A stretch of 5,346 bases of DNA from an uncultured Desulfovibrio sp. (lineage in GTDB: Bacteria > Desulfobacterota > Desulfovibrionia > Desulfovibrionales > Desulfovibrionaceae). The first letter of the stretch is position 1. Each line of letters opens with the position of its first letter. A program made the position numbers and the translations under genes. Of this stretch, positions 501 to 3,756 are shown one piece after another. The stretch lies in the NCBI GenBank assembly GCA_900555975.1, contig USNI01000079.1, positions 1-5,346 of the forward strand. The letters run 5' to 3'. The notes beneath the pieces were generated by a model. That model made no database searches. It was not told where the DNA came from and saw nothing but the letters and a program-made list of their open reading frames with translations.

Positions 501-539
501 AAATGCTTTTTCAGAGCGTCGTGGTGCAGGAAAGCATTT
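501..539. repeat. Inverted repeat AAATGCTTT / AAAGCATTT
   Basis: The perfect 9-bp arms at 501-509 and 531-539 are separated by 21 nt, and two extra T-G pairs are possible inside. No T-run follows the second arm, so it is a poor terminator for plus-strand transcription. It may be an operator or an RNA hairpin upstream of the yhhQ leader. Confidence 0.35.
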
Positions 540-584
540 GCCTTGCATGGCCGTTTGGGGCATAGTGCCGGACACGCCCTTTTG

Positions 585-652: not shown

Positions 653-685
653 GCCGTGTGCTTGAGAACCACGTAAAAAACAAGC
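653..685 (+). promoter_or_regulatory. preQ1-I riboswitch aptamer, copy 1
   Basis: The RNA can fold into the compact H-type pseudoknot of class I preQ1 riboswitches. P1 pairs CGUG 655-658 with CACG 670-673. U659 follows P1. P2 pairs loop bases GCUUG 660-664 with tail bases CAAGC 681-685. The unpaired AGAA 665-668 leads to C669, which sits immediately before the P1 3' strand, where known aptamers place the C that pairs with preQ1. The tail UAAAAAA 674-680 is the typical A-rich strand. The order of elements (P1, U, P2 strand, short loop, C, P1 strand, A-rich tail, P2 strand) matches the known Thermoanaerobacter and Bacillus aptamers as I remember them. The downstream queuosine genes strongly support the call. 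P1 is short at 4 bp. Confidence 0.85.
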
Positions 686-718
686 GCCGTGTGCTTGAAA
701 ACCACGTAAAAAACAAGC
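686..718 (+). promoter_or_regulatory. preQ1-I riboswitch aptamer, copy 2, adjoining the yhhQ start codon
   Basis: This copy has the same fold as copy 1, shifted by 33 nt. P1 is CGUG 688-691 with CACG 703-706. P2 is GCUUG 693-697 with CAAGC 714-718. The ligand-pairing C is C702 and the A-rich tail is 707-713. The last P2 base is separated from the yhhQ AUG (720-722) by a single U. Ligand binding would lock the nucleotides from -2 to -6 of the start codon into a pseudoknot, which should block 30S binding, so control is most likely at translation. No terminator hairpin or U-run lies between the aptamer and the gene, which argues against a transcriptional switch. Confidence 0.87.
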
Positions 719-719
719 T

Positions 720-1406
720 ATGAAACAGCATTCTTTTTCAGCAACGTTCATGTTGCTCGGCATTGTGTTCTGTACCTGTCTCATCATTTCCAATCTGCTG
801 GCTGCCAAGATCTTCATGCTGGGTACTCTTGCTCTTCCGGCGGCGGTCATCATCTTTCCAGTTTCCTACATCATCAACGACTGCATCGCCGAAGTCTGGG
901 GATTTCGTCGGGCTCGCTTCATCATCTGGACCGGTTTTGCCATGAATTTTCTTGTGGCCGCGCTGGGGCAGATTGCGGTTTTTCTTCCTTCCGCGCCGTT
1001 CTGGGACGGTGAAGCACATTTCAATTATCTGTTCGGTCTTGCTCCCCGTATCGCAGCGGCGAGTTTTCTGGCCTTCCTTGCGGGATCCTTCCTCAATGCC
1101 TACGTCATGAGCCGCATGAAGGTTGCCTCGAAAGGAAAACATTTTTCTGCTCGAGCCATTGTGTCCACGCTGCTCGGAGAAGGCGTCGATTCGCTCATTT
1201 TCTTCCCCTGTGCCTTTGCGGGCATGCTGTCATTTTCGGACATGCTGCCCATGATGCTGGCTCAGACCGCGCTCAAGACGCTGTATGAGATCGTCGTGCT
1301 GCCGATAACCATCCGTGTGGTTGATTACGTCAAGAAGATGGAAGATACCGACGTGTATGATGAGGGCATATCCTACAATATTCTCAAGATCAGGGAGGTG
1401 TCCTGA
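720..1406 (+). CDS. yhhQ: Queuosine precursor transporter, YhhQ family (COG1738)
   Basis: This 228-residue inner-membrane protein has about six hydrophobic segments, at roughly residues 9-29, 33-52, 66-90, 107-129, 146-171 and 176-201. Family-like motifs are visible: [14 protein letters not shown] (53-66), [14 protein letters not shown] (110-123) and [14 protein letters not shown] (149-162). YhhQ proteins import queuosine precursors such as preQ0 and preQ1. The gene is first in an operon with queC and queF, directly under two preQ1 aptamers, which independently supports the role. The chosen start puts about nine residues before the first helix and lies 1 nt past aptamer 2. No canonical ribosome site precedes it, only an A-rich stretch with ACAAG inside the aptamer. 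The next in-frame Met (codon 11) also lacks one and would clip the first helix. The exact substrate is not readable from sequence. Confidence 0.9.
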
Positions 1407-2104
1407 TGGCCGGAGCCGTTGTGGTGTTCAGCGGCGGGCAGGATTCCACCACCTGTCTGTTCTGGGCGAGAGAGCAGTTTGAGCAAGTCCGGGCCCTGAG
1501 CTTCTTCTATGGGCAGAAGCACAGACATGAGCTGGACATGGCCCGTGCCATAGCTGGGGACGCAGGGATTCCGCTGGATGTGCAGGATGTGAGTTTTATT
1601 TCCCGTCTTGGGCGCAGTTCCCTCACGGACGATACGATGGTCATGGACAGGGAAAAGCCGGAAGGCAGCTGGCCCAACACGTTTGTCCCGGGTCGAAACA
1701 TGTTTTTTCTCGGCGTTGCTGCCGTGTGGGCGCGCGAGCACGGTATGCGCGATATCGTCACCGGAGTGTCTCAGACGGATTTCTCCGGCTATCCCGACTG
1801 CCGGGACACATTCATCCGGTCCATGAACGTCACGCTGAATCTGGCCATGGATGAGCAGTTCGTTCTGCATACGCCGCTTATGTGGCTGGACAAGGCTCAG
1901 ACATGGGCGCTGGCCGACAGGCTCGGCGTGTTCGAGCTGGTGCGGACGCGTACGGTAACCTGCTACAACGGCATTGTCGGTGACGGCTGTGGAGAGTGTC
2001 CCGCGTGTCGTCTGCGTCGGCAGGGACTGGAGCGCTACCTTGAACAGAAAAAACAGGCGGAGTCGGGAACCCGCGTCGCCGAAGGAGAGGACCGTCATGC
2101 ATGA
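1406..2104 (+). CDS. queC: 7-cyano-7-deazaguanine (preQ0) synthase QueC
   Basis: QueC converts 7-carboxy-7-deazaguanine to preQ0 using ammonia and ATP, in the cytoplasm, as the last step before QueF. The 232-residue protein has the N-terminal ATP-binding PP-loop SGGQDST at residues 9-15. Its C-terminal zinc site is formed by Cys186, Cys195, Cys198 and Cys201, within [17 protein letters not shown]. Length and motif spacing are normal for the family. The start codon overlaps the yhhQ stop in a TGATG, and GGGAGGTG at 1393-1400 is a strong ribosome site 5 nt upstream, so translation of the two genes is probably coupled. queD and queE, which make its substrate, are not in this window and would have to be elsewhere. 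The gene should fall under the riboswitch through the shared transcript and coupling. Confidence 0.96.
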
Positions 2105-2558
2105 CAGAAAGGATGACCATCTTACGCTTCTCGGCTCCTCTGTCCGTTACCGTCAGGACTATGCTCCGGAAGTGCTGGAGACGTTTGAAAACAGACATGC
2201 CGAGCATGACTACTGGGTACGTTTCAACTGTCCGGAATTTACCAGTCTGTGCCCCATTACGGGACAGCCGGATTTTGCAGAAATACGTATCGAATATATT
2301 CCTGATGTGAAAATGGTGGAAAGCAAGAGTTTGAAACTCTATCTGTTCAGTTTTCGCAATCATGGAGATTTTCATGAAGACTGTGTCAATGTCATCATGA
2401 AGGATCTCATTAAATTGATGGATCCACGTTATATAGAAGTGACAGGTATTTTTACGCCTCGTGGCGGAATTTCCATATATCCGTATTGCAATTATGGGAG
2501 ACCGGGAACGAAATACGAGGAAATGGCGACATTCCGCATGCTTCATCATGATCTCTGA
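2097..2558 (+). CDS. queF: NADPH-dependent preQ0 reductase QueF, unimodal (short) type
   Basis: QueF reduces the nitrile of preQ0 to the amine preQ1, using two NADPH. The 153-residue protein is the short, single T-fold type seen in Bacillus rather than the double-length E. coli form. Catalytic residues are present: Cys52 in [16 protein letters not shown], Asp59, and His93-Glu94 in FHED. The family motif [16 protein letters not shown] starts at Glu75, the base-recognition residue. These sit three positions before the Bacillus numbering as I recall it. ATG 2097 is chosen because GAAGGAGAGG (2081-2090) sits 6 nt upstream; a longer in-frame extension would run inside queC with no support. The gene overlaps queC by 8 nt (ATGCATGA). 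Its product preQ1 is the ligand of the riboswitch heading the operon, which gives direct feedback. Confidence 0.96.
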
Positions 2559-2601: not shown

Positions 2602-2638
2602 GCATGAAAAAAGGGACTATCGGTCCCTTTTTTCATGC
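2602..2638. terminator. Perfect 16-bp hairpin terminator after queF
   Basis: The arms 2602-2617 (GCATGAAAAAAGGGAC) and 2623-2638 are exact reverse complements around a TATCG loop, 43 nt past the queF stop. The A-run and T-run sit inside the stem, a layout that can work as an intrinsic terminator in either direction. It closes the queuosine operon before the tilS promoter. Confidence 0.85.
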
Positions 2639-2730: not shown

Positions 2731-3756
2731 ATGTCACAGCCTGTTTTTTCTTTGAAGGCGTTCACGGTCGGGGATGCCCGCATGGTGCTTTCCGTTGCGC
2801 GCTTTATCCGGGACGATCTCGGTGTGGACATACGAGGAGAAAAACTTGTCATAGCGTTTTCCGGCGGGGCGGATTCCACGGCCTTACTGACTGTGTTCTG
2901 TGCGCTTCGCGAGTCTCTTCAGCTTTCTCTGGTCGCCGCACACCTTGATCACGGACTGCGTCCGGAGAGCGCGTCGGACGCCGAGGCGGCGAAAGCGCTG
3001 TGCCTTCGGTTCGGAGTTCCCTTTTTGGCAGGACGCGAACATGTCGGGGAGCTGTCCCGTACATGGCATTGCGGTGTGGAGGAGGCCGGACGCAGGGCCA
3101 GATACGCATTTCTTGAGAACTGCCGTCTGCAGCAGGGCGCCCGGTGGGTGCTGACGGCGCATCATGTCGGAGATCTGGCGGAAGACGTGCTCATGAGGCT
3201 TTCCCGGGGATCAGTGTGGCCGGCGCTCGGAGGCATGAAGGCTGTGGTGGATGAGCCGGGACGACATATTCTTCGTCCTTTGCTCATGCAGGAAAAAGAA
3301 ACTCTGGAGGCCATGCTGCAGCGGCTTGGCATCTCGTGGCGGGAAGATGCTTCCAATGCAAGCCGGACGTGGAAGAGAAACCGGGTGAGACATGATCTCA
3401 TTCCCTTGTTCTTGAAGGAGAATCCTTCCTTCTATGAAAGTGTGCGCCGCCTTTGGCGCAGTGCACGGAGGGATGAGCACGACTGGAAGATCCGGGCCGA
3501 ACATGGGCTTGAAGAACGCGACGGGAGTCTCTTTCTTTCGGACAGGACGCTTCACGAACTTTGCGAGTCCGACAGAATGCGTCTCATGGCGGAAGCTCTG
3601 CATCGCCTGCAGGGGGAAGTCAGGGCCGATACGCTGGAGTCGGTGAATGCGTCATGGAAGCGAAGACATTTTCCGCGTCGTTTTTCTTTCGGCGGAGGCG
3701 TCAAGGCAAGGCTCGACGGCGGGGGACTGTGCTTTTTCCGGGCTTCGGGGCGCTAG
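2731..3756 (+). CDS. tilS: tRNA(Ile)-lysidine synthetase TilS
   Basis: TilS joins lysine to C34 of the CAU-anticodon tRNA-Ile2 using ATP, switching its decoding from AUG to AUA; it is cytoplasmic and normally essential. The 341-residue protein has the PP-loop SGGADST at residues 44-50 and HLDHGLRPES at 71-80. It also shows EEAGRRARYAFLE (117-129), the TAHHVGDLAED segment (142-152) and EDASNASRTWKRNRVR (205-220). These are the N-type ATP pyrophosphatase core and the lysidine-specific motifs. In the AHH segment the commonly seen DD is GD here; Asp148 remains. The C-terminal part (about 225-341) is diverged, as is usual, and the length suits the short form of the family. Ribosome site AAGGGAGG (2720-2727) lies 3 nt before the ATG, rather close. 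It is a separate unit from the queuosine operon, linked to it only by the theme of wobble-base modification. Confidence 0.94.
   Translation: MSQPVFSLKAFTVGDARMVLSVARFIRDDLGVDIRGEKLVIAFSGGADSTALLTVFCALRESLQLSLVAAHLDHGLRPESASDAEAAKALCLRFGVPFLAGREHVGELSRTWHCGVEEAGRRARYAFLENCRLQQGARWVLTAHHVGDLAEDVLMRLSRGSVWPALGGMKAVVDEPGRHILRPLLMQEKETLEAMLQRLGISWREDASNASRTWKRNRVRHDLIPLFLKENPSFYESVRRLWRSARRDEHDWKIRAEHGLEERDGSLFLSDRTLHELCESDRMRLMAEALHRLQGEVRADTLESVNASWKRRHFPRRFSFGGGVKARLDGGGLCFFRASGR

Follow-up and report, generated by a model that had tools for sequence, protein, structure and literature searches.

The stretch of DNA analysed here (the window: 5,346 nucleotides from an uncultured Desulfovibrio sp.) carries yhhQ, queC and queF on its forward strand, preceded by two short repeated units (Table 1). 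The three genes lie downstream of the units, as an earlier note on this DNA had claimed, and each scored above its curated NCBIfam cut-off. A promoter-like string and a terminator-like hairpin, the latter taken as the probable end of the operon, were picked out by eye. The consensus scan of positions 400-2800 listed no plus-strand promoter, the candidate at 538-566 being among the strings passed over, and the terminator scan listed a wider palindrome (2602-2638) around the candidate operon terminator on the minus strand only. The unit junction (681-697), read on the minus strand, also resembles a terminator hairpin followed by a T run, which is probably a by-product of the repeat.

Table 1. 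Features of the yhhQ locus in the window
Feature	Positions	Strand	Remarks
Promoter-like TTGCCT-17-CATAGT	538-566	+	Putative, by eye; several Mailhella relatives have similar strings in their leaders
Unit 1, predicted preQ1-I type II-like aptamer	653-685	+	P1 655-658/670-673 CGUG/CACG; P2 660-664/681-685 GCUUG/CAAGC; C669; A-rich L3 674-680
Unit 2, predicted preQ1-I type II-like aptamer	686-718	+	P1 688-691/703-706; P2 693-697/714-718; C702; L3 707-713
Predicted junction hairpin CAAGCGC-CGU-GUGCUUG	681-697 (681-687/691-697)	+	7 bp; pair probability 0.98-1.0, nested ensemble
yhhQ, queuosine precursor transporter	720-1406	+	TIGR00697, 111 bits, cut-off 51
queC, 7-cyano-7-deazaguanine synthase	1406-2104	+	TIGR00364, 249 bits, cut-off 150
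queF, preQ1 synthase (QueF-II)	2097-2558	+	TIGR03139, 173 bits, cut-off 87
Terminator-like GGGAC-loop-GTCCC-TTTTTT, putative operon end	2613-2633	+	By eye

The preQ1-I aptamers are among the smallest known. The two directly adjoining 33-nt units were delimited identically, to the base, by reading of the sequence and by two repeat finders, in agreement with the earlier description. The second finder listed 653-718 as its sole tandem array in the window (period 33, 2.0 copies, 96% matches), and the units were 97% identical by repeat finder. G666/A699 is indeed the only mismatch between them and falls in loop L2. Both units contain P1, P2, a C before the P1 3' strand and an A-rich tail, L3 being UAAAAAA in each, and their sequence fits a predicted H-type pseudoknot in which the loop of the P1 hairpin pairs with the 3' tail to give P2. 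The P2 3' strand of unit 2 ends one base before the yhhQ ATG (720). The published account of the class places the specificity C directly before the P1 3' strand and separates type II (AC) from type I (UC) by the preceding base (PMC11625349); C669 and C702 are each preceded by A, which makes both units type II by that rule. A unit model, R1, whose training alignment includes the window's own units, matched unit 1 at 655-684 (42.3 bits) and unit 2 at 686-721 (53.4 bits). The minimum-energy fold of 640-760 was ordinary as compared to shuffles (z -1.14), in a nested folding scheme that cannot represent pseudoknots.

A search with the Rfam PreQ1 model had been proposed as a check, with two matches expected. 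It gave no Rfam match at the gathering score in the window and no RF00522 match at E <= 10 in 600-760, and an RF00522 search of the genomes of 15 relatives returned nothing above the cut-off. The homologous unit before yhhQ of Phocaeicola vulgatus (L057) aligned end to end with RF00522 at 14.7 bits, and another homologue (L143) aligned partially at 12.3 bits, the cut-off being 39. No RF00522 match at E <= 10 came either from the 141 bases spanning the yhhQ start in E. coli K-12, a leader that by eye is laid out like the published type III. Since RF00522 also misses clear homologues and this E. coli leader, its score is not decisive for membership; the cut-off is a detection threshold rather than a defining trait of preQ1-I. 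Both the class and the tandem arrangement put forward earlier are supported through another route, namely the pairings kept among homologues. The assignment of the units to the preQ1-I class, type II by the AC motif, is thus supported at the level of sequence, and they would be expected to bind preQ1. An RF00522 match of 23.4 bits in a Mailhella genome (G004) was set aside, since by eye it appears to be the end of a tRNA gene. Phocaeicola vulgatus has another RF00522 match below the threshold (30.1 bits; L081, G012:C1:3181471-3181528), which does not lie near yhhQ.

A genome scan with YhhQ confirmed 572 relatives, of which the best 80 named loci were used. These carry yhhQ, mostly together with queC and/or queF. 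A narrow pattern located a unit upstream of yhhQ in 78 of the 80 (best 80 of 572), missing L048 and L069; L048 was recovered once longer loops were permitted. Two units were present in L002, L003 and L004 among these 80. In the loci read, the distance from the last unit to the start codon is a few bases to roughly a dozen, and the subtype is frequent before yhhQ in those from Bacteroidota. The yhhQ leader of L069 holds a weak R1 match (2971-3002, 17.5 bits) with a different hairpin before AAAAAAACAGGAA, and possibly represents another subtype.

Among 41 distinct units (L091-L108 were excluded as repeats), P1 was CGUG/CACG in 36, CGAG/CUCG in four and AGAG/CUCU in one, and no mixed P1 combination occurred, though the pattern permitted them. 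P2 alternates between two subtypes, GCUUG/CAAGN and UCYAG/CARGA, the latter with a constant A-A mismatch; type II members may have just two canonical P2 pairs, according to PMC11625349. In an alignment of 40 units picked as distinct, every P1 cell pairs and two P1 pairs show double changes, the covariation resting mainly on a single position (U-A to A-U). Scored over both helices, covariation and the fraction of paired cells were higher than in any of the 500 shuffles or any slid control. The number of double-change pairs was equalled in 238 of the 500 shuffles, and slides of +1 and +2 yielded more double-change cells or pairs than the true register. Only 66.5% of P2 cells are paired in this alignment because MAFFT misregisters the Bacteroidota subtype. 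A16 and C17, which form the AC motif, are invariant columns in the 40 units, as are five A residues of L3.

Taking a tandem as at least two complete aptamers in one leader, such an arrangement of predicted aptamers is found at 653-718 of the window, in six Mailhella genomes and in arrays of one Bacteroidaceae genus, that of G489. Mailhella MAGs (Desulfovibrionaceae) are the nearest relatives of the window by YhhQ among the matches listed. R1 matched all 19 Mailhella genomes examined, and six of the 19 (G002, G003, G004, G021, G022, G023) have adjacent units 33 nt apart. The doublet of G022 lies within a 3.17-Mb contig; those of G021 and G023 lie at contig ends. G021 seemed to have a second tandem locus, on contig C15, but this was discounted: contigs C15 and C2 break off within the same repeat and are most simply one split locus, which G022 has whole. 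When R1 was run family-wide under stricter filters, 21 of 288 genomes matched, and adjacent pairs occurred only in six Mailhella genomes among the matches listed.

Loss of the P1 or P2 pairings in relatives had been named as an outcome that would count against the riboswitch reading. The seven Mailhella doublets read, one in the window and six in other genomes, showed no such loss, and changes within their units are confined to loops L2 and L3. Over six tandem leaders (window, G002, G003, G004, G022 and G023; G021 was excluded as like G022), 3 of 33 columns vary in unit 1, 1 of 33 in unit 2 and 25 of 33 in the adjacent upstream 33 nt, which were compared ungapped. The yhhQ genes of five tandem genomes differ on average by 0.396 per fourfold site. 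Both copies look held by selection, perhaps together with gene conversion; their near-identity leaves no between-copy covariation signal, and gene conversion may be what keeps them alike. In the YhhQ tree, where G023 is not placed, its yhhQ being cut off, six tandem rows and the single-unit genomes G001, G005 and G017 form a group of nine (94/97, not starred). The tandem label needs three changes on this tree, two of them forced by starred branches, and one gain followed by losses is a possible history. The doublet is dispensable, since G001, the closest by YhhQ (96%) among the matches listed, has a single unit. In single-copy Mailhella leaders the unit lies within three bases of the ATG, so that its ligand-induced folding would be expected to mask the start.

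R1 also matched 156 of 301 Bacteroidaceae genomes, with an adjacent pair only in G489 among the matches listed, where three units stand upstream of a yhhQ-queF operon. Within the genus of G489, 31 of 45 genomes matched R1 at E <= 1 (G610 at 0.96) and 30 loci were returned (L134-L163). The parser found three units in 16 of these, two in eight and one in four; in L142 it found two units 62 nt apart and in L163 none. By eye, L139 and L142 each hold an extra unit with one broken P1 pair, and L163 has one unit with a long L2. A small hairpin (ACCTTCAGTCGTTGAAGGT) seems to be inserted in the L2 of this unit (near 1538 of the minus strand of L163). Although the copies of one array are diverged from each other, their helices are kept. 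The usual triplet runs from CGAG/CUCG with GCCUG/CAGGC, through CGUG/CACG with ACCAG or CUUG, to CGAG/CUCG with GCUUG/CAAGA; by eye, P2 of the middle unit is often weak, down to two canonical pairs. Spacings range from 29 to 38, and most arrays are free of spacers, the base after the CAGG, CCAG or CAAG of one P2 being the first P1 base of the next unit (e.g. L147 1444-1534).

A two-unit alignment was made of 33 rows, 24 of which come as two per array and share its middle unit. In it, 97.7% of P1 cells are paired, with 31 double-change cells, and the covariation score was above that of every shuffle (500) and every slid control. Two double-change pairs were counted, a number equalled by every shuffle, because each P1 has a single position that carries the evidence. 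A YhhQ tree of 34 rows (L151 was dropped as too short) contains a clade with 100/100 support in which 22 of 22 rows have at least two units, and another group of seven (100/99) with two doublets and five single units. In all 23 parsed arrays compared (L139 and L142 excluded), the diverged copies cross-pair less than controls made of copied units, which is no proof of selection, since any divergence reduces cross-pairing. Related leaders of two phyla carry doublets or triplets of the predicted aptamer.

A two-unit model (R2), tried on 24 loci, gave 50-86 bits for arrays, most of which are in its training set, and at most 45.1 for single units. Searches with R2 under stricter filters in 393 genomes of the order of G012 and 395 of its phylum found no arrays. 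They returned ten matches in the order and one in the phylum (included in the ten), with spans of 46-57 nt, shorter than two units, and nine of the ten proved on reading to be single units (L168 left out). The large searches filter more strictly: the search of 301 genomes gave one adjacent pair, and the genus search found arrays in several of the same genomes. The absence of arrays elsewhere is therefore not established by these searches.

Three other readings of the repeat were weighed. Unit 2 alone could regulate yhhQ, with unit 1 a redundant slippage duplicate kept alike by gene conversion. The 97% identity of the copies in the window fits this, as do the single units of G001, G005 and G017 within the same clade of nine, and in G002 the two copies share a change to T in the A-rich loop, the pattern expected of gene conversion. 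However, the doublet is present in six other genomes despite a difference of about 40% at fourfold sites of yhhQ (five tandem loci), unit 1 varies solely in L2 and L3 in the leaders read, and in a second phylum arrays have endured, with differing copies whose helices are kept. We regard a redundant unit 1 as unlikely, though it is the most credible of the three.

A repeat of 33 nt could also be coding, as 11 codons, and a leader peptide could sense queuosine-modified tRNA via its Asn and His codons, which are of the kind read by queuosine tRNAs. A frame is open through both units (654-722), reading Arg-Val-Leu-Glu-Asn-His-Val-Lys-Asn-Lys and stopping at a TGA that shares bases with the yhhQ ATG; in this frame G666/A699 is a silent difference (GAG/GAA). 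In Bacteroidota, however, the frame meets TAG or shifts with the varying length of L2, and the array spacings of 29-38 break it. Third-codon positions in Mailhella vary no more than the rest, L2 and one L3 base excepted, and an in-frame ATG was seen by eye in just two of six upstream flanks. A conserved open frame, freer third positions and a conserved start, by which a leader peptide would be recognised, were not found, and we give this reading very little credence. Slightly less still is given to the interleaved inverted repeats acting at the DNA level, as operators bound by a transcription factor, instead of in RNA. CGTG/CACG and GCTTG/CAAGC are inverted repeats in DNA as well, but interleaved helices, an unchanging C ahead of the P1 3' strand and an A-rich loop are as expected of an H-type pseudoknot, the last unit stops close to the start codon in the loci read (a few bases to roughly a dozen away), and a homologue aligns end to end with RF00522 (14.7 bits). 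On this evidence the redundant duplicate, the coding repeat and the DNA operators were each rejected as the main reading.

Building on the units, their helices as seen by comparison, their conservation and their tandem relatives, we infer the ligand, the direction of control and the coupling between units as follows. The doublet is likely a tandem preQ1-I type II-like translational off-switch, in which preQ1 would be bound by both units, with unit 2 closing the start and unit 1 coupled to it through the predicted junction hairpin. Unit 2 takes the position of the single unit in single-copy Mailhella leaders. No GGAG-like ribosome site is present in the 15 bases before the yhhQ ATG; because of this, and because its P2 ends one base before the ATG, folding of unit 2 would shut the start codon directly. 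Unit 1, ending 34 bases upstream of the ATG, is probably unable to cover the start itself. The predicted junction hairpin pairs the tail of unit 1 (its P2 3' strand) with a strand drawn from P2 (5' strand) and P1 of unit 2, so that it is predicted to oppose both pseudoknots, and its letters are identical in the six other tandem loci read. Duplication would thus have created a hairpin by which the ligand-free RNA is predicted to hold both units open. Capture of ligand by one unit would then release the other, and such coupling would give a steeper response and require more preQ1 than a single unit.

By a nearest-neighbour estimate, freeing both units is 4.9 kcal/mol cheaper than the sum of freeing each, and positive coupling is therefore predicted. 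Several features of the nested ensemble speak against such coupling. The unit 1 P2 strand also pairs there with the unit 2 tail with a probability of 0.79. The start codon is mostly paired in this ensemble without ligand (unpaired probability 0.23-0.36 at 719-722), and locking unit 1 gave 0.17-0.48, with no clear change from the ligand-free state. An open start (ON state) without ligand was thus not seen in the nested ensemble, a model that ignores pseudoknots, Mg2+ and co-transcriptional folding. A bolder and more doubtful extension, which we offer tentatively, is that the head-to-tail preQ1-I arrays, double or triple and spread over two phyla, are true cooperative devices. In Mailhella, a strand-exchange hairpin would link the identical copies, and a single ligand would open it for both of them; the diverged, abutting Bacteroidaceae copies would stack each P2 on the next P1 to form a continuous rod ending at the start codon.

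The units resemble type II riboswitches of Bacillus subtilis and Thermoanaerobacter tengcongensis, as described in PMC11625349, in their H-type pseudoknot, AC motif, A-rich L3 and downstream que genes. They differ from them in standing in tandem, in having a P2 that ends at the start codon and covers no Shine-Dalgarno-like sequence, and in not being reported by RF00522. Their position before yhhQ is shared with the type III E. coli yhhQ leader, which sequesters the ribosome site (PMC10622847) and belongs to a type with a UU motif, a pyrimidine-rich loop and a paired AAGG (PMC11625349). Unlike type III, the window units have a single U before GCUUG and are doubled. The cooperative response predicted for the window recalls type I (Carnobacterium), where two ligands share one pocket; there, according to PMC11625349, cooperativity arises within one UC aptamer, whereas the window would use two coupled AC aptamers.

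Many riboswitch classes are known to form tandem arrays. Repetition of one class before one gene is also a feature of the c-di-GMP-I, glutamine and SAM-I (pseudo-cooperative) tandem doublets and triplets compiled by Sherlock et al. 2022 (PMC9481103). That survey covered 44,270 RefSeq genomes and environmental DNA, and its Table 3 puts preQ1-I, -II and -III as not found in tandem; the class repeated here, preQ1-I, is thus one absent from its tandem set. The main text of Morales and Merino 2025 (PMC12452182) does not contain the term 'preQ1'. We found no earlier report of a tandem preQ1 riboswitch in the literature searched, many subscription papers and supplements being beyond reach. As judged from sequence, the window doublet is a real tandem of preQ1-I-type units and one member of a larger group of such doublets and triplets, for which no earlier report was found. 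Annotation likely undercounts this yhhQ-leader subtype, because the Rfam PreQ1 model does not report it. The doubled arrangement would likely sharpen the off-switch, as modelled here. A 30-nt aptamer that occurs naturally in doubled and tripled form would offer a minimal, easily synthesised system for asking whether aptamer number sets the steepness of control, and the same arrays could show how near-identical neighbours avoid or exploit cross-pairing.

Two minor observations concern the distribution of yhhQ. The yhhQ operon and leader of L062, a record titled Roseburia, group with Bacteroidota rows, which may reflect a wrong label or contamination of the MAG. Six Mailhella genomes (G001-G004, G021 and G022) carry a second yhhQ (L110-L115), 64-65% identical, which is preceded by a single unit in five and by only a degenerate one in L115. 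These second copies group with Bacteroidota rows in the tree, which suggests transfer between phyla.
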